Origin: an uncultured Pelagibacteraceae bacterium
Lineage (GTDB): Bacteria; Pseudomonadota; Alphaproteobacteria; Pelagibacterales; Pelagibacteraceae
Length of the DNA: 64,000 nucleotides
Direction of reading: 5' to 3'
Assembly (NCBI GenBank): GCA_902603905.1
Contig: CACKWM010000004.1
Coordinates: forward strand, 16,163-80,162
Part shown: positions 16-64,000 of the stretch, one piece after another
How the letters are laid out: every line of letters starts with the position of its first letter
Position numbering within the stretch: position 1 is the stretch's first letter
Translations under genes and position numbers: made by a program
Notes under the pieces: model-generated
Told to the model about the DNA's origin: nothing
Databases searched by the model: none
The model's input: the letters and a program-made list of their open reading frames with translations, nothing else

Positions 16-1662
16 ATGACCAAAAAAAAGAATACTTGGAAAAATCCTTTGGCTATTTGGGGTGCAAAAGGTGGAAATTATGAAGTTCCAACACCACCAT
101 ATAAAGATCCGCATGATATATGGAAAAAAACAAATTCATATAAAGTTCCAATAAAAAAAATAGGTAGATTTCACTATGAATATAAGTCTTCAAATCACGG
201 AAACAAAATTTGGAATCGTCTAAGATGGTGGCCAACAAGAAGAACTATTTTGTGGACTAAAGGAGTTTATAATAGAAAAAGTTTAAAAGCTGAAAAAATA
301 AGAAAAGACAAAAGACCAATTTTTTGGTTTTTTGGATTGCTTTTTTTAGCTATTGCTCCATTTATTTTACCAGAAGGAAACAAAACTGCTCTTTTAACAG
401 CAGGAGGAATTTTTGGAATTTATGCATCTATTAACTTGTGTTGGACACTTATAATTGGAACTGCAGGCATATTTTCCTTAGCAACATATGCTATTGTAGG
501 AATTTCAGCATTTTTTACATGCTGGCTATCAATAAACTTGGGTCTTCCTTGGTGGACCTTGCCTTTAATAGGTATGTTTATAGGCTTAGGGTTTGGAATA
601 ATTATTGCGCTACCAGCTTTAAGATTAGATGGCTTTTACTATGGATTGCTTACCCTGGGGCTAAATGAACTTTGTAGAGTTTTTATAACGACATCAAAAG
701 CTTTCGGATCAGCATCTGGTGGTTTGTTCGGAGCAGACACTTTTATAAACCAAGACTGGACACCAATGACACAAACCTATGCAAGTTATTATAGTGCATT
801 TCTATTATTAATTGCTGCATTGTTTTTATTTAGATTTGTTGATGGAAAGCGTATAGGAAGAATTTTAAAATTAGCGCCAGAAAAAAAAGAGTCATTTGCT
901 GAAGCTTCTGGGGTAGATTATAAAAGAGCTAGAGTTACAGTGTTTTTAATTTCCTCAGTTGCATTAGGATTCATTGGAGGTTTTTATGCAGCTTATTACA
1001 GAGGCGTAGCTTTTAATCTTTTTGATTTTCATACTGTAGTAATGGGGCTAGCCATGATCACAATTGGTGGAATTGGCAGATCTGAAGGCGCAGTTGTAGG
1101 CACACTAATAATTGTAATTTTAGATAGAGTGTTAATAGAATTAGGTCCAATGAGATATATAATTATTGGGGTTTTAATGATGTTTACCATTTTATTTCTT
1201 CGAAATGGGTTATTTGGAATAAGAAAACAATTTAAGGAATGGAGAAACAAAAAAAAGAATGAAGTAAGATCAACCAGGGTAGAAAGAGGAGGAGAAATGT
1301 TACCAGAGCAATCAACTGAGATGGATAATAAAGATGAAGTGTATAGAAAGAGATATGATAAAATGCAAAGAGAGTTTTTAAAAACCCTAATTTGTAATGA
1401 AATTATTGAAGAACATAAAAATAAACCATTAGGCCAACATAGCGAAGCGCTGGAAAGAGTTTTGTATTATTTTAGAAGAGCAGCAATGAATGATAAGTAT
1501 GTTGTTAAATGCGAAGAGCCTTTTAAGAAATATAAAATTATGGCTTTATCAGGTGTTAGAGGTAGGTCACCACGACTTGTTGAGGACAAAGTTTATCCCT
1601 CAGTAACGGATGCTTACCATGGGTTATTTTTAAGAAGAGTGCAAGATTTAATGGAGGCATAA
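16..1662 (+). CDS. LivM-type branched-chain amino acid/amide ABC permease with ~100 aa N-terminal extension and C-terminal dimethylformamidase small-subunit-like domain (fusion)
   Basis: 548 aa ORF. Residues ~100-410 are a polytopic LivM-like permease (GGIFGIYASINLCWTLIIGTAGIFSLATYA..., ALPALRLDGFYYGLLTLGLNEL...). Residues 428-548 align by eye with the separate DMFase small subunit at 61560..61979 (LGQHSEALERVL..., YKIMALSGVRGRSPRLVED..., LFLRRVQDLME). Confidence 0.85.
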   Translation: MTKKKNTWKNPLAIWGAKGGNYEVPTPPYKDPHDIWKKTNSYKVPIKKIGRFHYEYKSSNHGNKIWNRLRWWPTRRTILWTKGVYNRKSLKAEKIRKDKRPIFWFFGLLFLAIAPFILPEGNKTALLTAGGIFGIYASINLCWTLIIGTAGIFSLATYAIVGISAFFTCWLSINLGLPWWTLPLIGMFIGLGFGIIIALPALRLDGFYYGLLTLGLNELCRVFITTSKAFGSASGGLFGADTFINQDWTPMTQTYASYYSAFLLLIAALFLFRFVDGKRIGRILKLAPEKKESFAEASGVDYKRARVTVFLISSVALGFIGGFYAAYYRGVAFNLFDFHTVVMGLAMITIGGIGRSEGAVVGTLIIVILDRVLIELGPMRYIIIGVLMMFTILFLRNGLFGIRKQFKEWRNKKKNEVRSTRVERGGEMLPEQSTEMDNKDEVYRKRYDKMQREFLKTLICNEIIEEHKNKPLGQHSEALERVLYYFRRAAMNDKYVVKCEEPFKKYKIMALSGVRGRSPRLVEDKVYPSVTDAYHGLFLRRVQDLMEA

Positions 1663-1665
1663 AAA

Positions 1666-3987
1666 ATGGCAGAAATTAAAATATTTGGCTATACTGACAA
1701 GATATCTGTAAAACAAGGAGAAAAAATTAACTTTCACGTGTCAGCAGATGGAACAAAAACTGCTCAAGCACAACTGGTAAAATTAATTCATGGTGATGGA
1801 CATCCAGATGGGCCTGGATATTTAGATGAAAAAATTGATGATAAAATCAATGGAGAGTGGAGTGTTGAAAAACAATTCACGCAATTAGGTTCTTTCTTAA
1901 AAGTAAATGATCCAGAAAATAAATTAGCAATAGATGGTGATTTCACAATATTTGGATACATTTGTCCTTCAACGCCAAAAACTGGACATCACCAGTGGAT
2001 CTTTAGTCGTTGGAATAATAAAACAAACGAGGGGTATGGCATAGGAATTAATAAAGATGGATACTTTGAACTTGCAGTTGGAGATGGTAAAGAAGTTGAC
2101 TATTTGATTTCTGAACTGCCTATGATTAAAAAAGTTTGGTATTTTGTGGCAGCAACCTTTAACTACAAAACGGGCGATGCAACTTTATATCAAGAAGGTG
2201 TATTAACCAGATATAATTCATTACTTGGAAAAGTTGTACCCTATGATTACCGTTCACACACAAAAACAACTTTTAGATTTAAACAAAAAAATAATCCAAA
2301 AACTCCATTTATTGTTTCTGGAGCATATGATTTACATGAGTTAAGAGGTCATTTTATTTCAGGTACTTATGCAGGAAAGGTAGATAGACATGGTATTTGT
2401 AATAAAGTTTTATCTAAAGAAGATTTGGACAAAATTCGTGATGGAGAATTGCCAGAGAAAAATTCTATACTAGCGTATTGGGATACTACTGTAGGTTTTT
2501 CAGATAATGGAATAAATAATACTGTAATTGACATTGGGCCAAATAAATTAAACTCAGAAGGTCATAACCATCCAGTAAGAGCTATGACTGGATGGAACTG
2601 GAATGGAAAGAATGATAATTTTAGATTAGCCCCAAAAGAATATGGTGGAATTGATTTTCATCCTGATGCAATAACAGATGCAAAATGGAAAGTTACAAAC
2701 TCAATGACAATTCCTGAAGATTTAAAAAGTGGTGTTTATGCAATAAGATTAAGATCTGGCCCTGGTACTGGTTTAAGTGAGGAATATATTGTATTTTTTG
2801 TAAGACCTAAAAAACCAAAATCTAAAATTTGTTTTCTAGTTCCTACTGCTAGTTATTTAGCTTATGCAAATGAAAAATTAAGTTTTGAAGCAGTTATAAT
2901 TCAACCAATGACTGGGCAACCACCTACAATTACAGATATTGATATTGAGCAATATAAAAATCCTGAGTTTGGATTATCAACTTATGATAGCTACGCTGAT
3001 GGAGCTGGTGTTTGTTATTCGTCTTATAAAAGACCAATACTAAATATGAGACCGAAGTATAGAACTTCGGGAATGGGTATAACTTGGCAATTTCCTGCAG
3101 ATCTTTCTGTAATTGGGTGGTTAGAACATAATAATTATGAATATGATATAATTACTGACGAAGATCTACATAAAGAAGGTTTAAATTCTGTTAAACCTTA
3201 TAATTGCGTAATTACTGGTACTCATAATGAATATTATTCAGAAAAAATGCTTAACGCCTTAGAAGATTATGTAGCTAATGGTGGTAGAGTTTTTTCTACA
3301 GGAGCTAATGCTTATTATTGGGTTGTTGCATTTCCTGAAGAACAACCTTGGTGCATGGAAGTAAGAAAGTTAGAAGCTGGAATGAGAGCATGGGCTGCAA
3401 AACCTGGTGAGTATTATATGCAAACAACTGGAGAAAAAGGTGGATTATGGAGAACACGTGGACGTCCACCTCAAAAATTTGCAGGTGTGGGATTTATTGC
3501 AGAAGGTTTTGATACTTCTGAAAAATACAGAAAAATGCCTGATGCATGGCATAGAACAGTTTCATGGATCACAGAAGGTGTTGAAGGTGAAATTATTGGA
3601 GATCATGGATTGGCATATGGAGGTGCTGCTGGAGTGGAAATAGATAGATACGATCTTTCTTTGGGAACTCCTCCTCATACTAAAATCATTGCTTCTTCAG
3701 GGGGTCATAGTGATAATTACGTTCTTGTCACTGAAGAACTATTATATGCCTACGCTGGATTGGTGGGATCATTAGATTATAGAATAAGAGCTGACATGAC
3801 TTATTTTACATCTCCAAATAATGGTGCTGTATTTTCCACAGGATCTATTGCATTTGGACAGTCCCTACCTAGTAACAATTTTAATAATAGTTCATCAACA
3901 GTGATGAAAAATGTAATTAATGCATTTATGAAAGATGGAAAGTTGCCTGGAGGCTTGTGGACTTTAGAAGAAAAACAATGGAAGTAA
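1666..3987 (+). CDS. N,N-dimethylformamidase large-subunit-like protein
   Basis: 773 aa, strong whole-length similarity to the second copy at 59180..61537; shared motifs PT(A/N)SYLAYxN, GLSTYxxxxDGxGV, ILNMRPKYR, EVRKxEAGxRAW. Confidence 0.85.
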   Translation: MAEIKIFGYTDKISVKQGEKINFHVSADGTKTAQAQLVKLIHGDGHPDGPGYLDEKIDDKINGEWSVEKQFTQLGSFLKVNDPENKLAIDGDFTIFGYICPSTPKTGHHQWIFSRWNNKTNEGYGIGINKDGYFELAVGDGKEVDYLISELPMIKKVWYFVAATFNYKTGDATLYQEGVLTRYNSLLGKVVPYDYRSHTKTTFRFKQKNNPKTPFIVSGAYDLHELRGHFISGTYAGKVDRHGICNKVLSKEDLDKIRDGELPEKNSILAYWDTTVGFSDNGINNTVIDIGPNKLNSEGHNHPVRAMTGWNWNGKNDNFRLAPKEYGGIDFHPDAITDAKWKVTNSMTIPEDLKSGVYAIRLRSGPGTGLSEEYIVFFVRPKKPKSKICFLVPTASYLAYANEKLSFEAVIIQPMTGQPPTITDIDIEQYKNPEFGLSTYDSYADGAGVCYSSYKRPILNMRPKYRTSGMGITWQFPADLSVIGWLEHNNYEYDIITDEDLHKEGLNSVKPYNCVITGTHNEYYSEKMLNALEDYVANGGRVFSTGANAYYWVVAFPEEQPWCMEVRKLEAGMRAWAAKPGEYYMQTTGEKGGLWRTRGRPPQKFAGVGFIAEGFDTSEKYRKMPDAWHRTVSWITEGVEGEIIGDHGLAYGGAAGVEIDRYDLSLGTPPHTKIIASSGGHSDNYVLVTEELLYAYAGLVGSLDYRIRADMTYFTSPNNGAVFSTGSIAFGQSLPSNNFNNSSSTVMKNVINAFMKDGKLPGGLWTLEEKQWK

Positions 3988-4269: not shown

Positions 4270-5595
4270 ATGTCAAAAAATTTATCTAAAATAGCAAAAA
4301 CAAAAAAAATTAAATATTTTTTAATTAGTTTCGTTGATTTGTTTGGTGTTCTGAGATCAAAGTTAGTTCCTGCGCGAGCGATTGGCGAAATGCAAGAAAA
4401 TGGCGCTGGATTTGCTGGATTTGCAACTTGGCTTGATATGACACCAGCAGATACTGACATGTTTGCTATCCCAGATCCTGACAGCTTAATTCAACTGCCA
4501 TGGAACAAAGAAGTGGGTTGGTTAGCATCGGATTTATGGATGGGTGGAAAACCTGTAAAAGCATCACCGCGTGTAATGCTTAAAGAACAGATAAAAAAAC
4601 TTAATACAAAAAATTTAACTATGAAATCTGGTGTTGAATGTGAATATTTTTTAATCACACAAGATGGGAAAAAAATTGCAGATGAAAGAGATACTCAATC
4701 AAAACCTTGTTATGATCAATCAGCTTTAATGCGAAGGTATGATTTAATTAAAGAAATTTGCGATAGTATGATTGAACTTGGATGGAACCCTTATCAAAAT
4801 GATCATGAAGATGCTAATGGGCAATTTGAAATGAATTGGGATTACAGCGATTGTTTAACAACGGCAGATCGACATGTTTTTTTTAAATTTATGGTAAAAT
4901 CATTAGCAGAGAAGCATGGTTTAAGAGCAACTTTCATGCCTAAACCTTTTCAAAACTTAACTGGCAATGGTTGTCATGCTCATATTTCTTTATGGGACGG
5001 CAAACAAAATAAATTTTTAGAAAGTGGGGAAAAACTTGGTTTAAGCAAAATAGCATATAATTTTTTAGGTGGAATAATGAAATTTGCACAACCATTAACT
5101 GCTTTCTTTAATCCTACAATAAATAGTTATAGAAGAATTAATGCACCGCCTACTAAATCAGGTGCTTCATGGTCTCCAAGTAGTATTTCTTACTCAGGAA
5201 ATAATAGAACCCACATGATAAGAGTCCCTGACCCAGGAAGATTTGAATTAAGATTAATGGATGGTGCAACTAATCCTTATTTGCTGCAAGCAGGAGTTGC
5301 CGCGGCAGGTATACATGGATTAATTAATAAAATAGATCCAGGTGAACCTTTGTCGTGCAACATGTATACGGAATACAAAAAATATCCTGATTTAAAAAAA
5401 TTGCCTGATTGTATTGAAGATTCTTTAGATGAACTTGATAATAGTAAAGAAATTAAAGAAGCTTTTGGAGAGAATGTAATAAACAGTTTTATAAAATTAA
5501 AAAAAATGGAAGTAGAAGAGTTTAATAAAGAAGAAAATTTTGATAAAAAAAAAGAAGTTACAAGCTGGGAAAAAGAAAACACTTTAGATTGTTAA
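4270..5595 (+). CDS. Glutamine synthetase family protein, type III/GlnT or gamma-glutamylmethylamide synthetase (GMAS)-like
   Basis: 441 aa: KIKYFLISFVDLFGVLRSKLVPA, GFAGFATWLDMTPADTDMFAIPDPDS, GNGCHAHISLWDG, FELRLMDGATNPYLLQAGVAAAG. Confidence 0.8.
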   Translation: MSKNLSKIAKTKKIKYFLISFVDLFGVLRSKLVPARAIGEMQENGAGFAGFATWLDMTPADTDMFAIPDPDSLIQLPWNKEVGWLASDLWMGGKPVKASPRVMLKEQIKKLNTKNLTMKSGVECEYFLITQDGKKIADERDTQSKPCYDQSALMRRYDLIKEICDSMIELGWNPYQNDHEDANGQFEMNWDYSDCLTTADRHVFFKFMVKSLAEKHGLRATFMPKPFQNLTGNGCHAHISLWDGKQNKFLESGEKLGLSKIAYNFLGGIMKFAQPLTAFFNPTINSYRRINAPPTKSGASWSPSSISYSGNNRTHMIRVPDPGRFELRLMDGATNPYLLQAGVAAAGIHGLINKIDPGEPLSCNMYTEYKKYPDLKKLPDCIEDSLDELDNSKEIKEAFGENVINSFIKLKKMEVEEFNKEENFDKKKEVTSWEKENTLDC

Positions 5596-5598
5596 CGA

Positions 5599-6723
5599 AT
5601 GTCAACAGGATCTGAAGTTCTAAAATGGAAATATTCACAGTTTTTAAAAAACAAAAAAAATAACTTTAACAAAAATAATATTTTAAACGTACTAACAAAG
5701 CATGAAATTGATGAAGCATACAAGATAATTTCAAAATGGGAGAATTACTCACCTACTCCACTAATATCTTTAAAAAAACTTTCTGAAAAATTAAAACTTA
5801 ATAATATTTTTTATAAAGATGAGTCTAAAAGATTTCATCTAAAATCATTTAAAGCTCTTGGGGGTTCTTATGCTGTTGAAAAAGTTACTAAAGGAAAAAA
5901 AAATATAATTATTTCTACTGCTACTGCCGGAAATCACGGAAGATCAGTTGCATGGGGGTCCAAAAAATTAGGACTAAAATGTAAAATTTTTATTAGTGAA
6001 TACGTAAGTGAATTTAGAGCAAAAGTAATGAGAAGCTTTGGTGCAGACGTAATAAGAGTTAAGGGAAATTATGATAATTCGTTAAAAGAATGTATTAAAC
6101 AATCTAAACAAAATAAGTGGCAAATCATTCAAGATGTCGCGTGGCAAGATTATAAGTTGGTACCTAAATTAACTATGGCAGGATACACAGTAATGATGAA
6201 AGAAATATCAGAACAAATAAATAATAAGAAAATTTCACATGTTATATTGCAAGCTGGAGTTGGTGGAATGGCAGCCGCAATGATAGCTGGTATAGCTAGA
6301 TATTTAAATCATATTCCTCAAATTATTGTAGTTGAACCAGAAAGTGCAGCATGTGTTCTGGAAAGTATAAAAGCCGGCAAAATTGAAAAAATTTCTATTA
6401 AAAAAGAAAGTTTAATGGGTGGCATGTCTTGTGACGAAGTATCCATGGTTCCCTGGGAAATATTAAAAAATTCTGTAAACCATTGTGTAACTGTTTCAGA
6501 TAATTACATTTCAAAAACTGTTAAATCTCTTTCAAACTGTGAGTTTAGTAAAGAAAAAATTATTGGGGGTGAATGCTCAACGCCAGGAATTATTGGTTTA
6601 GCCGGTTTATGTAATGATAATGAAATTAAAAAAAAAATAAATTTAAATGATCGATCTAATGTTTTGCTATTTGGTTGTGAGGGTGATGCGGATGAAGAGT
6701 TGTATCAAAAATTATTAAATTAA
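5599..6723 (+). CDS. PLP-dependent diaminopropionate ammonia-lyase/threonine dehydratase-fold enzyme
   Basis: 374 aa with YSPTPLISLKKLSEKL..KDESKRFHLKSFKALGGSYAV (PLP Lys region), TATAGNHGRSVAWG and LFGCEGDAD. Confidence 0.75.
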   Translation: MSTGSEVLKWKYSQFLKNKKNNFNKNNILNVLTKHEIDEAYKIISKWENYSPTPLISLKKLSEKLKLNNIFYKDESKRFHLKSFKALGGSYAVEKVTKGKKNIIISTATAGNHGRSVAWGSKKLGLKCKIFISEYVSEFRAKVMRSFGADVIRVKGNYDNSLKECIKQSKQNKWQIIQDVAWQDYKLVPKLTMAGYTVMMKEISEQINNKKISHVILQAGVGGMAAAMIAGIARYLNHIPQIIVVEPESAACVLESIKAGKIEKISIKKESLMGGMSCDEVSMVPWEILKNSVNHCVTVSDNYISKTVKSLSNCEFSKEKIIGGECSTPGIIGLAGLCNDNEIKKKINLNDRSNVLLFGCEGDADEELYQKLLN

Positions 6724-56728: not shown

Positions 56729-58795
56729 TTATACAAAATAAACATAGAATATTATTGAAAATATTGCCATTCCTATAAGAATTAATATCCAACCATAGCC
56801 TGTTCCAACTTTATCTATATAGTTAACTTCTCCTTGAACCTCATCTGGCTTTTTATATAGATCGTTTGCTTGAATAGGTTTGTTTGGCAAAGTTGATAAA
56901 TCCATTTTACTTGCCAAAAACCAAATTAACCCTATGCCAAATAACCACCAAATCAACTGATATCCCCAAATAGACGGTATCTTAAGTATCCAAGATTCAT
57001 AGCCAGCTCCAGGTTCTCCAAAAAAACTATTTCCAAGAATTTGCCCTGGACCAACTCCAAAAAAAAGCCAGATTAAAGCAATTACATAAGCAAATGATCT
57101 TAGTTTTGTTCTGCTTGGATGTAAGCCCATATGTTCATTTAAAAAATCATGAAACTTTTGTCTGTGTGGTCTGTAAATATCAATTTTTGTAATATTAGAA
57201 AAAGCAGAAATAGAAAAACAGATAAAAACGTTAAATAACATTCCCCATACACCTGAATGTATCGTTAGTGGCCACCTTCCCCAAGGCAATCTGTTTCCGG
57301 CTATTTGTTGTCCAATAGTTTCAGTCAAAATTACAATGATTATTCCAATAACTAATCCAAAAATTGCTGCTCCTCTTGTTATCCAAGGAAACCAAACTAG
57401 ACCAAGTAAAACAATTAAAAACTGAAAGGCTATAGAAATTGCTATTCCGCTAAAAATTACCATTGCTGGCTTAGCAAATGTTGCTAAATAAAGTGATGCT
57501 AAAAATACTAACATCATTATTATACGAGCAGCAGCACGTTCTTTTTCCCAATTTATGTTTTTATTAATATAAGCTTTATATAAATCCCTTGTAATAATAC
57601 TTCCTGATGTCATTAATAAAGCTGCAGCTGTTGACTGAAGTGCTGCAATCAATCCAACTGCTAATAAGCCAGTTAACCAAAGAGCATGCTTGTCCATTAA
57701 ACTTATAATGTGATAAATTATTAATGAATGATCTTTGTTAGAAACTTCTGGCAGCAAAGTACTTATTGAAAGACCGCTCTTATTAATTTCTGCATTTGCT
57801 CCTAATAAATTCGCACCGATTCCTTGATATGTTGCAAATACAAATAATAAAAAACCTACGATAACAGCAGATCCCCAAACTTGATAATAAGAAAAAGCTT
57901 TTGGGTGTTTTGCTGAATAACTCCACATGGAAAATGAAGGTGAAAGAACTATTCCCATAAAAGAAAGTGTAAAAGTAAAAATCATCATTGCAGTCCAGGG
58001 ACCACCAACTGCCTCGTTCTTTCCTAGTCCTGATACCCATTGAACAACACCTGGTAAGGCAAAATATCCATTATAATCACCACCTCCATAACCATTGGTA
58101 GTTTCCCAAGAACTCATATTTGTGCTTGCAACCTTTGCTAATGCTTTGCCAAAAGTTTCAAAATTTCCAATTAAAGAATAAACGATAATTCCTAAAAGAA
58201 TTACTGTCAAAAAATAAAGCCAAGATTGAACCACTCCTACGGTAACAATAGATTTAAAACCTCCTCTCGTTACATAGAACAAAACAATTATGGAAATTAT
58301 CCACATGCTTAATTCCCTAGAAACATGTCCTTCAGTTAAGGTATTGACTAAGTAGCCTGTGGCGCCAAAAAAAACTGCAATTAAGGGTATTGCTATAAAA
58401 AAAGTTACTATGACTGAAATAACACGGATTGCATCACTCTTATAGTAATCATAATACATTTCACCTGGAGTGATATATCCAAACTTTTTGCTTAACATCC
58501 ATTGTCTCTTAAAAAAAAATATACTTCCTAAAGGAACTGTTATCGCAACAAAAGCTGTTCCAACATATTGAAAGCCATCATGAAAAATAAGATTTACCTG
58601 GGATATAACTGTTAAACCAGCAAATGTAGCCGCTGTTGCTGCAAAGAAAAAAACCCATGATGAAACATTTCTGTTTGCTAAATAATATTTCTCTGCACTG
58701 TCAGAATTATATTTTGATCCTCTTACACCCCAAAAAAAACAATAAGCAGCATACAACAAAATAAAAATAAACAACCAAAGAGATTTTTCGGACAT
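56729..58795 (-). CDS. Sodium:solute symporter (SSS) family protein
   Basis: 688 aa; ~14 TM segments, AALQSTAAALLMTSGSIITRDLYKAYI. Confidence 0.88.
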   Translation of the reverse strand: MSEKSLWLFIFILLYAAYCFFWGVRGSKYNSDSAEKYYLANRNVSSWVFFFAATAATFAGLTVISQVNLIFHDGFQYVGTAFVAITVPLGSIFFFKRQWMLSKKFGYITPGEMYYDYYKSDAIRVISVIVTFFIAIPLIAVFFGATGYLVNTLTEGHVSRELSMWIISIIVLFYVTRGGFKSIVTVGVVQSWLYFLTVILLGIIVYSLIGNFETFGKALAKVASTNMSSWETTNGYGGGDYNGYFALPGVVQWVSGLGKNEAVGGPWTAMMIFTFTLSFMGIVLSPSFSMWSYSAKHPKAFSYYQVWGSAVIVGFLLFVFATYQGIGANLLGANAEINKSGLSISTLLPEVSNKDHSLIIYHIISLMDKHALWLTGLLAVGLIAALQSTAAALLMTSGSIITRDLYKAYINKNINWEKERAAARIIMMLVFLASLYLATFAKPAMVIFSGIAISIAFQFLIVLLGLVWFPWITRGAAIFGLVIGIIIVILTETIGQQIAGNRLPWGRWPLTIHSGVWGMLFNVFICFSISAFSNITKIDIYRPHRQKFHDFLNEHMGLHPSRTKLRSFAYVIALIWLFFGVGPGQILGNSFFGEPGAGYESWILKIPSIWGYQLIWWLFGIGLIWFLASKMDLSTLPNKPIQANDLYKKPDEVQGEVNYIDKVGTGYGWILILIGMAIFSIIFYVYFV

Positions 58796-58811
58796 TTAAT
58801 CCTTTTTAAAT

Positions 58812-59180
58812 TTAGGTGCAACGCCTTGGTGCTGATTCACCTCGCTCTTTTTTAATTCTTTCTGCTTCTTTTTGTGCTGCTTCAATTGATGTAAAAACTT
58901 TATCTTCATACAAAATAAATGGCTTAGCTCTATCAGCATTAAGCTGGGCCACACACCATTCTTTACCAGGCTTAGTGCACATTACCATGTAAGCTCCCGG
59001 TATAGGTCCATATTTTCTATTATTTAGAGTAAAAAGACTTTTAGCTAGTTCATTTAGTTTATCTTCATCTAAATTTCCTAAAGCATTTTTTTCTAATTCA
59101 TTAAAAGGTGTAACATTATCAGATCCTAATATGCTTTTACCGCCTGTTCCTTCTGGTCTTGTAAATTGAGGTTTATTCAT
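58812..59180 (-). CDS. Hypothetical protein in DMFase operon
   Basis: 122 aa; MVMCTKPGKEWCVAQLNADRAKPFILYEDKVFTSIEAAQKEAERIKKERG. Confidence 0.55.
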   Translation of the reverse strand: MNKPQFTRPEGTGGKSILGSDNVTPFNELEKNALGNLDEDKLNELAKSLFTLNNRKYGPIPGAYMVMCTKPGKEWCVAQLNADRAKPFILYEDKVFTSIEAAQKEAERIKKERGESAPRRCT

Positions 59181-61537
59181 TAAGGTAAAGGCCCTTCCTT
59201 TAAAAATCCGTTTATTGCATTTTCAAGTATTTTAGAAACATTATTATTGTAATTATTATAAGACAAACTTCCGCAAAAAGATAAAGAACCAGGAGCAAAC
59301 AACGCTCCATCATTTGGAGTTTTATAATAAATCATATCAGCTCTAACCATTGGGTTTTCCGTTCCTCCTCCATAAAAACCTCTTACGGTAAAATGAATTT
59401 CTTCATTAACTTGCATCATTAAATTTGTGTGATTTTCAGATCTGGCTAAAAGATATGCATTAGGCGGTGTTCCAAATTCCAAGTCATATCTATCAAGTTC
59501 TAATCCTGCAGCTCCTCCTCCAACTAAACCAAAATCTCCAATTACCTCGTCTTCTCCAACACCATCAAATATCCAAGAGCATTCAGGTCTTTTACTGTCA
59601 TCGCACCTTTTATAATAGGAACTAACATCAAAACCATAAGCTGTAAAAGTTAGACCACAAACTTTAGATGGAATTCTTCCTCTTGCTCTCCACATTCCTC
59701 CATATTTTCCATCAAAGGCATTATTATATTCTCCAGGATTAGCTGTCCATGCTCTAGTGCCAGCTTCTCCTTTTCTAACTTCAATAATATTTGGATTATC
59801 TGGGTGGTATTCACTTATCCAATAAAAACCATCAGATCCTAAATAAATCCATCTTCCACCATTTAATTGATATTGCTCATAGGCAGCTAACATTTTTTCT
59901 GAACTGTATTCAGGGTGTGAGCCAGTTAAGACACACTTATAACGATTTAATAAATCTACCCCTTCCAAATGTAAATCTTCATCAGTTACTACATCAAAAT
60001 CAAAATTTTTTTCTTCTAACCAATCAGTTAAGTGCAAGTCTGCATTTAATTGCCATAAGGAAGGAGACAACCAATGTCTATATTTTGGTCTCATGTTTAG
60101 TATTGGTCTTAATCTTGATGAGATTGCAACTCCGCTACCATCTGAATGTTTAGAATAAGTTGATAATCCATATTCTCTGTGTTCATTTAGATATAAATCT
60201 GACGCAGACATGACAGGGACTTTTCCTGCCAATAATTGGGCAACTACAGAATTTGTTCCTAAATTATCATTTGAATAAGCCAAGTAACTATTAGTTGGAA
60301 GTACAAAACAAAGTTTAGAAGTTGCTTTTCCTTTTGGTGGTTTAATTACAAACGGAATAAAGTCTTCAGTCTCTGCAGACTCTTCTCCATTAATTCTTAA
60401 TCTTGCCGCATAGACTCCACTTCGAATAATATCTGGAACTTTAAATGTAAAATCGACATCCCATCTAGCATCATCTATATCATCATCGTGAAAATGTATT
60501 GCTCCATATTCTTCAGGTTTATGATGAAAAACCATTTCATCTGCAGTCCAATTGTATCCTGTCATAGCTCTACAAGGTAAATTTATAATAAAACCATTTA
60601 AATGATTTGAAGTTGTGTCAATAATAAATGTTGATGCCATATTTTTGGTAATATTTGCATGAAAATCCCAGGCCCCAATTACTTCTGATCTTAACTCTGA
60701 GGTACAACCACTAAATCCTCTTGCAAGAGATTCTATGTCAGATTTTGATAAGGCTTTTTTACTTAATCTTGGTCTATCAATCTTGCCATTGTAGGTTAAA
60801 TTTTGTTCGGGTAATTCTATTGGGTCTATTGCTTCTTTATAATGAGCTCCATGGATATGCCGTCCAGAACGATCCTTTAAAGTGCTTGCTGCCATTAAAA
60901 ATGGTGCGTCATTTGCTCTAGGTTTTAAATTATTTGTAGCTTCAACAAATGCTGTTGTTTCATCCGCAGGATGAAGTAAAGACAATCCTAAACCACCATT
61001 TGTTGGTGTTACACAAGGTTCTTGATAAAGTTTTAATTTTCCTGAATTAGCATCATAAGTTGCGGCCACTAGATACCAAACTTTTCGCATTAACTTTTTT
61101 TCGCTTGAAAGTTTTGTTAACTGACCACTGCCATCACCTATCATTACTGATAAGCATGCATTTTCATCTATAAAAAGTCCATAACCACTTTTTGCTTGAT
61201 CATTCCATTTAGTCAAGATTCCTTGTTGACCTTTATCTGGTGTTGTGGGAAAAATATATGCCTGAAGAGTAAAACTTTCTGTATTTAATCTATCATCTTG
61301 AGGTATTATAATATAGGAACCACCATGTATTCTTTGGTTTCTTCCTTGAAGAGTTTTATTGCACTCTGCTCCAATTTCTTCATCTTTATAGCCTGGTCCT
61401 TCAGGATTTGTATCTCCGTGAATTAGTCTAACAATTTGAACATCATAATTTTCATTTTTTTCTGCGTTTACATAAAATTTAATTTCATCGCCAGGGAAAG
61501 CCTGATATTTATCGCTGTAGCCCGTAATTCTAAGCAT
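59180..61537 (-). CDS. N,N-dimethylformamidase large-subunit-like protein (second copy)
   Basis: 785 aa; LPTNSYLAYSND, GLSTYSKHSDGSGVAISSRLRPILNMRPKYRHW, IIEVRKGEAGTRAW. Confidence 0.85.
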   Translation of the reverse strand: MLRITGYSDKYQAFPGDEIKFYVNAEKNENYDVQIVRLIHGDTNPEGPGYKDEEIGAECNKTLQGRNQRIHGGSYIIIPQDDRLNTESFTLQAYIFPTTPDKGQQGILTKWNDQAKSGYGLFIDENACLSVMIGDGSGQLTKLSSEKKLMRKVWYLVAATYDANSGKLKLYQEPCVTPTNGGLGLSLLHPADETTAFVEATNNLKPRANDAPFLMAASTLKDRSGRHIHGAHYKEAIDPIELPEQNLTYNGKIDRPRLSKKALSKSDIESLARGFSGCTSELRSEVIGAWDFHANITKNMASTFIIDTTSNHLNGFIINLPCRAMTGYNWTADEMVFHHKPEEYGAIHFHDDDIDDARWDVDFTFKVPDIIRSGVYAARLRINGEESAETEDFIPFVIKPPKGKATSKLCFVLPTNSYLAYSNDNLGTNSVVAQLLAGKVPVMSASDLYLNEHREYGLSTYSKHSDGSGVAISSRLRPILNMRPKYRHWLSPSLWQLNADLHLTDWLEEKNFDFDVVTDEDLHLEGVDLLNRYKCVLTGSHPEYSSEKMLAAYEQYQLNGGRWIYLGSDGFYWISEYHPDNPNIIEVRKGEAGTRAWTANPGEYNNAFDGKYGGMWRARGRIPSKVCGLTFTAYGFDVSSYYKRCDDSKRPECSWIFDGVGEDEVIGDFGLVGGGAAGLELDRYDLEFGTPPNAYLLARSENHTNLMMQVNEEIHFTVRGFYGGGTENPMVRADMIYYKTPNDGALFAPGSLSFCGSLSYNNYNNNVSKILENAINGFLKEGPLP

Positions 61538-61559
61538 TATATAAACCTCAATAAATTAA

Positions 61560-61979
61560 TCATTCTGAATATCTTTCTAGAAGATCCACTACTCTTTTTA
61601 AAAAAATAGCATGCTCAACTGCCTCTTCTGAGGAAAAAGATTCTTCTAAAATTTTAACTGGCTCACCTCTAACTCCTGTTACTATGCCTATTCTATAATC
61701 TTCAAAATCTTTTTTACATACTGTTACATATTTCTTTATATGCATTGGCTGTCTTCTTAGTTTATCTAAAACAATTTGAAGTTCCTTGCTATGCTCAACC
61801 ATTGGTTGGCCTTTGTGTGGTTGAGCTGCCTTACCGACTGGGCACGCTCTATGCTCTTCAATTAATTTATTTCTCATTTTTTCATCTTTTAATAGAGGTA
61901 AAACATATTTTCTGGTTATGAAGTCATCAGTGCTTGTATGACCCCGATCTAATTGAACTCCAGTTTTATCTTTTGTCAT
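61560..61979 (-). CDS. N,N-dimethylformamidase small-subunit-like protein
   Basis: 139 aa, EHSKELQIVLDKLRRQPMHIKKYVTVCKKDFEDYRIGIVTGVRGEPVKIL; immediately upstream of the large subunit. Confidence 0.8.
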   Translation of the reverse strand: MTKDKTGVQLDRGHTSTDDFITRKYVLPLLKDEKMRNKLIEEHRACPVGKAAQPHKGQPMVEHSKELQIVLDKLRRQPMHIKKYVTVCKKDFEDYRIGIVTGVRGEPVKILEESFSSEEAVEHAIFLKRVVDLLERYSE

Positions 61980-61982
61980 AAA

Positions 61983-62837
61983 TTACTTATTAGTCCTTTC
62001 TTTAATAATTTTTAAAGCTTCCATTAGATAAACTCTAAATACTTCATGGTTTTCACTCATTGGAAAATGTCCGATATCAGTCATTTCTATATAAACACCT
62101 CCTTTTATTTGTCTTGCGGTATTCTCTGTTGCTTCTGGAGGTGTCAAATAATCATAAGTTCCTGTTAACATTACAACAGGGCATTTATGTCCATCAATAT
62201 TTTTTAATTCTTTTCTTAGATCATGATCAACAGAATAAAAATATAGGTCTCCTTTAAATGCTTCTGAGCCTTGAGTATAATAATGCCAAGTTAACCATCT
62301 ATCTTTTTCAGGAGATTGTGGTGCCATTAGATCCCACGTTCCACTAGCACAAACTTGAGCAGCATTTGCATGAGGATGTCTCCACCAATCTAAATAAAAT
62401 CCTGGAGCATAATCTGCAGCTTCAACAGGTATTACAGCTCTAAATTTGTTTGGATGACGTAATGCTAATTGTAAAGCAACATTTCCGCCAAAAGAAGATC
62501 CCATAAAAATTGGTTTTTGCAAACCTAAGGCATCACATAACTTAACAATAAAATTACAATAGTGTTCAGCTTTTAGTTTGTATTCTTCTTTCCACCATTC
62601 TTTATTATGTGGGGGATCTGATTTTCCATGTCTTGGAAGGTCATAAGCAATAACATTATAATCTTTAGTAATTTCTGGATCTTCAAGCAAACCTCTCCAT
62701 TGATGGTTATGACATCCAGCAGTATGTTGACAAATTAAAGGTATTCCTTTTCCATTTTGAAGGTAAAAAACTTTATATTCACAATCGTCAACCTCAATTG
62801 TAACATAACGTCCTACAACATCATGATGCTTTACCAT
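61983..62837 (-). CDS. Alpha/beta hydrolase
   Basis: YDLPRHGKSD, IFMGSSFGGNVALQLALRHP nucleophile elbow, MTDIGHFPMSENHE. Confidence 0.87.
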   Translation of the reverse strand: MVKHHDVVGRYVTIEVDDCEYKVFYLQNGKGIPLICQHTAGCHNHQWRGLLEDPEITKDYNVIAYDLPRHGKSDPPHNKEWWKEEYKLKAEHYCNFIVKLCDALGLQKPIFMGSSFGGNVALQLALRHPNKFRAVIPVEAADYAPGFYLDWWRHPHANAAQVCASGTWDLMAPQSPEKDRWLTWHYYTQGSEAFKGDLYFYSVDHDLRKELKNIDGHKCPVVMLTGTYDYLTPPEATENTARQIKGGVYIEMTDIGHFPMSENHEVFRVYLMEALKIIKERTNK

Positions 62838-62868
62838 TGTAATACTCCTTCTAATTTAAAATTTTTCA

Positions 62869-63258
62869 TTAAACTGGTACTCCTGTTTTTCTTAATAATT
62901 CAAACTGAACTGTAAAATTTCTAAGATTTTTCATTAATATCAAATGATTGCCCTCAATTTTTAAATCTTTTAAAAAACTAGCAGACCATATACCGTGATA
63001 CATTGGTTTAGGCATTGGTTGTCCAAATTCTCTCCAAGTTTTTGCTGATGCTCTTAAAGCAAAGTCATATGGGTCTAAAGGCGAAGGATTTGTGTTAATA
63101 TTTTTTACTTTGCCGTCGTGCATTTCTATAATTACTTTTGCGTTCTCCATATCAAACATAAAAGAGCAAGTATAATATTTTGCCATAGCTTTAATAGTGT
63201 CATCACTATTAGTAGCTTCTTCATATTTTTTTGCCCAGTTATCTAAACCACTACTCAT
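62869..63258 (-). CDS. Hypothetical protein, possibly SCP2-like
   Basis: 129 aa; TCSFMFDMENAKVIIEMHDGKVKNI. Confidence 0.45.
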   Translation of the reverse strand: MSSGLDNWAKKYEEATNSDDTIKAMAKYYTCSFMFDMENAKVIIEMHDGKVKNINTNPSPLDPYDFALRASAKTWREFGQPMPKPMYHGIWSASFLKDLKIEGNHLILMKNLRNFTVQFELLRKTGVPV

Positions 63259-63273
63259 AATATTTTACTTTCG

Positions 63274-64000
63274 TTACTTAGAACCCTTGGTTCCTTTAGT
63301 TGGATCGTTGTCGAAGTTCATATGATAATCTTTTTTGGGATTTTCATAATCACCAAGAATATTTCTGATATTGCTTATTTCTCCAGGATTCATTCCAATT
63401 TCTCTAAGCAAACTATCTAGAAATGGTTGGTGTGCTCTATAACGTAATGCCGAACTAACTACGTTATCTGCTAAATTACCACTTCTTCCTGATCCTCCTG
63501 CAGTTGCTGTCTCACCACTACCTCCTGAACCAGAAGTTCCACTAAAGCCTGGTAAACCGTTAACATCAACAATTTTAATATCTCCAATGTTTGCCATCGG
63601 TTTAACACTTTCTCTAATGATTGCTTCAATTTTTTCAGCAAGTTTTAATCTTAAAGCACTTCTTCTGCTTGCATCGCTTCTTAGGTTTTCAGCGGCATTT
63701 AAAGCTTCTTTACCAGCGGCATCTATTTCGTATCTTAGTTTCGCTGCCATAGTTGCAAATCTATCCTGTTCCGCTTTTGAAGCAGCTGAAATAACATCTA
63801 CTTTCTTAATACCTTGAGCTTTTTCGATATATCTAGCAGAGTTAGCTTTTTCTTCAGCTTCTATTGCTCTAGCTCTAGTGCTTTCTTCTTCTGCTTTAGA
63901 TTTTAAAACTTGTTTTGATTTATTTATAACTTCAAGATTTTTTTGATGCTCTTCTATACTTAATCTCTTAGCTTTCTCTATATCAAGAAGCCTTACTTCT
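63274..64000 (-). CDS. Flotillin-like protein, C-terminal part (continues off the right edge)
   Basis: The minus-strand frame stays open to the window edge: ...EVRLLDIEKAKRLSIEEHQKNLEVINKSKQVLKSKAEEESTRARAIEAEEKANSARYIEKAQGIKKVDVISAASKAEQDRFATMAAKLRYEIDAAGKEALNAAENL. Confidence 0.75.
   Translation of the reverse strand, partial: EVRLLDIEKAKRLSIEEHQKNLEVINKSKQVLKSKAEEESTRARAIEAEEKANSARYIEKAQGIKKVDVISAASKAEQDRFATMAAKLRYEIDAAGKEALNAAENLRSDASRRSALRLKLAEKIEAIIRESVKPMANIGDIKIVDVNGLPGFSGTSGSGGSGETATAGGSGRSGNLADNVVSSALRYRAHQPFLDSLLREIGMNPGEISNIRNILGDYENPKKDYHMNFDNDPTKGTKGSK

Follow-up and report, generated by a model that had tools for sequence, protein, structure and literature searches.

A LivM-type permease fused in frame to a dimethylformamidase small-subunit domain, with a candidate internal start at the junction

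The fusion gene and its operon

We analyzed a window of 64,000 nucleotides (G000:C4:16163-80162), the whole stretch under study, from a SAR11 genome, G000, that is 853 kb in size and 61% complete. The features described below between 16 and 6723 lie on the forward (+) strand. The gene at 16..1662 encodes a protein of 548 aa in which a LivM-type ABC permease runs in frame into a small-subunit domain (DmfA1) of N,N-dimethylformamidase (DMFase). Its ATG overlaps the 3′ end of a LivH gene by 4 nt, its open reading frame is uninterrupted, and its stop codon ends at 1662, with the large-subunit gene starting at 1666. The N-terminal part was identified as BPD_transp_2/LivM-like (PF02653, E = 1.8e-23), and the same operon holds a binding protein (SBP), two ATPases, and LivH, giving the full set SBP-G-F-H-M shared with the LivHMGF and UrtBCDE importers of branched-chain amino acids and urea. 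The fused permease scored under the curated equivalog cut-offs for both LivM (63.2 vs. 366 bits) and UrtC (44.4 vs. 296 bits); it therefore represents a separate subfamily whose substrate, by that test, is neither branched-chain amino acids nor urea. In contrast to the permeases of those importers, it adds a C-terminal enzyme-subunit domain and an N-terminal extension of approximately 100 residues (16..318, from the alignment) ahead of the first transmembrane helix. This extension was kept in most fused proteins, was shorter in the divergent L067, and was modeled with low confidence; it is possibly another docking surface.

After the last transmembrane helix, a linker (1219..1296), basic and then reading E(R/K)GGE, leads to the junction, where a Shine-Dalgarno (SD)-like sequence, AGGAGGAG (1287..1294), precedes an in-frame internal ATG (1297..1299), the proposed start of a free small subunit of 121 aa. 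The 121-aa DmfA1 domain (1297..1662) was recognized by both sequence and fold. It matched the solved DMFase small subunit 6lvb_B (phmmer, E = 6.9e-8) and shared 37% identity over 88 aa with the free paralogue at 61560-61979. Modeled alone (pLDDT 85.5), it matched 6lvb_B in Foldseek with E = 7.1e-8 and TM 0.86/0.84, and it has the two long terminal helices and small sheet of that subunit. The full-length fusion was modeled at pLDDT 53, with low confidence in the basic linker; its top structural matches were nonetheless DMFase small subunits, and interface claims from this model were dropped because it was too poor. An earlier note on this DNA had described the in-frame fusion of permease to DmfA1, the resemblance of its last domain to the free small subunit at 61560..61979, and the positions of the SD, ATG, stop, and large subunit around the junction, and all of these were borne out.

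The adjoining large-subunit gene, DmfA2 (1666..3987), was 41% identical to that of Paracoccus DMFase (6lvb; PMC7686228) and kept all 5 catalytic positions compared, namely the iron ligands Y399, Y440, and E521 of the 2-Tyr-1-carboxylate site plus H519 and N547. It also resembled N-acetyl-beta-phenylalanine acylase (8huy). The small-large gene order and the small-subunit fold (TM 0.86) are likewise those of Paracoccus, whereas Paracoccus DmfA1 is a free protein of 132 aa whose gene follows a regulator gene of its own, the stretch read there containing no gene for an ABC importer, and its counterpart here is fused to the C-terminus of an ABC permease. Further downstream, we identified an orthologue of GmaS, gamma-glutamylmethylamide synthetase (4270..5595; TIGR03105; E = 1.9e-169 to 7cql, which is GmaS [PMC7948447]), followed by a diaminopropionate ammonia-lyase-like PLP enzyme (5599..6723) that also comes after GmaS in related SAR11 operons reaching that far.

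Spread and conservation of the fusion

A fusion with the same junction was present in 8 further SAR11 genomes and in 5 or more non-SAR11 lineages. The scan of 85,462 species genomes yielded 16 loci, with 9 of these belonging to SAR11. Fusions outside SAR11 came from a Rhodospirillales MAG, Dongia (Dongiales), Acidiferrobacteraceae, and other Gammaproteobacteria, and were also found on plasmids of Ensifer, Aminobacter, Rhizobium, and Agrobacterium, as well as in G197 and G601; besides SAR11, the carriers are a number of unrelated proteobacteria from soil and sea. Broader genome sampling by class added little, no relatives were found in viral contigs, and no description of a permease-DmfA1 fusion was found in the open-access literature searched. 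A 483-aa open frame, L035, was dropped as an extra permease fusion because its upstream frame encodes something other than a permease.

The frame was open through the permease in 8 of the 9 further SAR11 loci, with nearly equal lengths (431-435 codons 5′ of the ATG). The ninth, L009 from a single-cell assembly, had a frame break inside LivM (L009:527-531) that is either an assembly error or decay, with the DmfA1 part and the junction intact. Among SAR11 sequences, dN/dS was 0.03-0.09 (about 0.05) in the fused domain, which is under strong purifying selection, and at most approximately 0.19 in the linker, which is conserved as protein. Of the 121 domain columns, 44 were invariant. One substitution could in principle join 2 adjacent genes, and the fusion would then reflect either an error in sequencing or a stop codon lost recently between livM and dmfA1. 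This explanation, which retains next to no probability, was ruled out by the open frames and fusions in relatives: no related genome had a stop before the junction, the database search recovered permease-DmfA1 fusions in SAR11 and in many unrelated bacteria, and dN/dS was low across linker and domain.

In every locus whose contig continues, a DmfA2 gene follows the fusion. In Paracoccus, the large subunit has no activity without the small subunit, which binds it and lines the active-site entrance (PMC7686228). Whole-genome searches identified the fused domain as the sole small subunit in G197, G578, and 4 SAR11 genomes, each with 1 large subunit, and the small/large counts in fused-only genomes were 1/1 in G197 (98% complete), G578, and SAR11 and 5/5 in G601. 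The fused domain was also the only small subunit in G579, with 3 large subunits, and in G580, where the adjacent large subunit is cut off. Of 3 genomes with a separate free copy, 2 had 1 extra small subunit (small/large, G582 4/3 and G581 3/2). The comparison supports the adjacent DmfA2 as the likely partner of the fused domain. On the Aminobacter plasmid pMDW2 (L026:10730-15473), 2 DmfA2 genes follow the fusion, the second with Ala in place of iron ligand E521.

The junction start codon and separate small-subunit genes

The loci fell into 2 classes. Class 1, comprising SAR11 (10 sequences), L018, L019, L026, L027-L030, L061/L068, and L067, carries the junction ATG in frame and lacks a separate small-subunit gene ahead of DmfA2. 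Class 2, comprising L017, L021, L022, and L025 (all no-ATG loci with a continuing contig), has Ala codons at the position of ATG1297, lacks any other ATG, GTG, or TTG start in the next 7 codons, and carries a free small-subunit gene that separates the fusion from DmfA2. Contig ends truncate L020 and L023. The opposition of an ATG without a free copy to a free copy without an ATG held in all readable loci, and the plasmid and genome matches fetched after the pattern had been noticed (Ensifer vs. Aminobacter and Agrobacterium; G601; G197) all agreed with it.

In the tree of LivH, LivM, and DmfA2, class 2 formed one clade (100/99), sister to SAR11 (100/100), and the ancestral state was an ATG without a free copy. 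Loss of the ATG and gain of the free copy were one change each on the same branch, which makes up about 1% of the total tree length as calculated from the printed branch lengths. They count as one event, and the coupling therefore provides no replicated test; an independent-pairs test of ATG against free copy had no statistical power because it contained only one independent contrast. In the DmfA1 tree, the free copies of class 2 clustered with that class's fused copies, nested among the fused sequences (96/91), placing the duplication after the fusion, and evolved faster than the fused copies.

We compared the predicted SD pairing at 1287-1294 with 55 nearby gene starts, among which it ranked third strongest, and ATG1297 stood alone among the operon's 176 in-frame internal ATGs in having an SD of this strength. 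The bare DNA pattern AGGAGG-N3-9-ATG was discarded as an improbable feature, with 3 occurrences in the window against 1.5 expected, not rarer than chance. SD strength was also dropped as proof of selection in SAR11, where it equals the expectation from coding ERGGE in local codons (P = 0.57). Against synonymous codons, the corresponding values were P = 0.008 in L067, 0.09-0.17 in Acidiferrobacteraceae and Aminobacter, and about 0.94 in the Agrobacterium group, whose SD is weak. Codon conservation was more telling for the start: in the nine SAR11 sequences compared, the gene's longest run without synonymous variation spans codons -5 to +2 relative to the ATG, with P = 0.018 for the 5 SD codons and 0.0006 for all 7 codons at this pre-specified site, and P = 0.09 for a run of 7 such codons anywhere in the gene. 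The junction has a conserved in-frame candidate start with an SD at a domain boundary, as in genes with internal starts, and the comparison supports the use of ATG1297 as a second start that would give a soluble small subunit.

The strongest competitor to this second start is that the fusion protein is the only product, the hydrolase is always tethered to the membrane, and the ATG and SD are by-products of a linker reading E-K/R-G-G-E-M/A-L-P. The linker is indeed kept as protein even without the ATG, and the junction residue is conserved as Ala in the clade lacking it, so some of the Met conservation may be due to constraint on the protein; SD strength at the synonymous expectation in SAR11 and the weak SD of the Agrobacterium type point the same way. 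However, the synonymous freeze in SAR11 falls exactly on the SD and start, all lineages that lack a free copy have the ATG and the clade that has one lacks it, L067 keeps an ATG shifted by one codon behind a perfect SD (AAAGGAGGTGAAGTCATG), and the free copy of L021 begins at the very codon position of ATG1297 (MLPE). We therefore regard a fusion-only gene as unlikely, at roughly one part in four of our expectation, and a two-product gene that was split into 2 genes in one clade as the most economical reading. The earlier proposal that one gene yields both a tethered and a soluble small subunit accordingly stands in part: its soluble product gains from the ATG/free-copy comparison and the synonymous freeze, and loses from an SD in SAR11 that matches coding expectation and from a coupling that is a single event on the tree.

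Importer, a probable docked hydrolase, and a proposed methylamine pathway

We consider it likely that the locus encodes an importer and a DMFase-family hydrolase whose large subunit, DmfA2, docks through the C-terminal domain of LivM, with ATG1297 also providing a free small subunit. The ABC importer (binding protein, two ATPases, LivH, and LivM) would bring in an N-methylated amide or formamide, and the small subunit of the hydrolase would be the cytoplasmic C-terminal domain of the permease, so that DmfA2 would dock on the importer. Internal initiation at ATG1297 would produce this small subunit in untethered form as well. Each transporter would carry one tethered small subunit and the alpha2-beta2 enzyme needs two, and the free copy would therefore fill the second place; we offer this stoichiometry as conjecture, and the free copy may alternatively supply a soluble pool of the enzyme. 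At the membrane, hydrolysis of the imported amide would release methylamine for assimilation by GmaS and the operon's N-methylglutamate-synthase-like enzymes. The hydrolase probably sits on the importer that supplies its substrate; we infer docking, channelling, stoichiometry, and substrate. The fuller picture, in which importer and metalloenzyme form one complex at the cytoplasmic exit, the gene has dual initiation, and the roles were divided in one clade by duplication and loss of the start, is evenly poised in our judgment.

Several observations bear on tethering, which the earlier note had framed as recruitment of the amidohydrolase to its own transporter. That idea gained support from the fold, the dN/dS of about 0.05, and the fused domain's standing as sole small subunit in several genomes, and further from its being kept even where a separate free copy exists; the analysis turned up nothing that speaks against the predicted binding to the large subunit. 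In class 2, the tethered domain is retained and cannot be freed from the same start, which argues that tethering itself is useful. A different role for the domain, either regulating the transporter (e.g., by sensing the level of product or large subunit) or being proteolysed at the linker, would suit a linker that is basic and modeled with low confidence. We hold this to be improbable, as the whole domain is strongly conserved, it is the sole small subunit for the large one in several genomes, and the free-copy clade keeps a fused domain that evolves more slowly than its free copy.

A gene yielding a full-length protein and, by initiation at an internal start, a short C-terminal isoform is known from SpaO/SctQ of type III secretion (PMC13059759). 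The arrangement predicted here from sequence is alike in giving a full-length fusion and a free C-terminal domain from one gene, and differs in its products, SpaO being a soluble scaffold whereas the long product here is a membrane permease and the predicted short one an enzyme subunit.

Genes resembling the N-methylglutamate pathway (GmaS, MgsABC; PMC7948447, PMC4543880) flank the importer and hydrolase in SAR11. Upstream of the window's fusion gene, the DNA of L024 encodes an FAD oxidoreductase, a glutamine-synthetase-like protein, and GATase, GXGXG, and Glu_synthase proteins (mgsA/B/C-like), and further an Amt transporter, a periplasmic binding protein, two UrtD/E- or LivG/F-like ATPases, and LivH. 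A further mgsABC-like set lies between DmfA2 and GmaS in L009, L010, and L012-L016; the window has no set at that place. Outside SAR11, importer, fusion, and large subunit are kept, but no mgs genes turned up in the flanking DNA, a point against the overall reading. SAR11 thus has a DMFase-type hydrolase, the fused importer, and N-methylglutamate genes in one cluster; in Paracoccus, the DMFase and N-methylglutamate systems are on different plasmids (PMC4543880). These gene families suggest an operon that imports and hydrolyses an N-methylated amide and proceeds through methylamine to N-methylglutamate.

If true, physical attachment of the first catabolic enzyme to an importer would exemplify natural coupling of transport and metabolism in oligotrophic SAR11 cells, which face scarce substrate and can lose small amides by leakage, and the loss of an internal start with the gain of a separate gene would offer a testable case of a two-product gene split in evolution. 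The operon also points to an N-methylated amide as an overlooked marine source of C1 and nitrogen.

A second DMFase pair, a free DmfA1 (61560-61979) and a DmfA2 (59180-61537), lies within 56729-63999 of the window, adjoined by a sodium-solute symporter, an alpha/beta hydrolase, and a flotillin gene (PF15975). The neighbourhood corresponds to the FArhodopsin-associated cluster reported from SAR11 (PMC10308929), and the "inner membrane translocator" of that description may be the free DmfA1 under a wrong name taken from the permease fusion. The free DmfA1 of the archaeon Halalkalicoccus (L033:7800-8342) is annotated "inner-membrane translocator" as well, a label apparently carried over from permease-DmfA1 fusions, and the fusion may explain the membrane-translocator annotation of some small subunits in the DMFase family.
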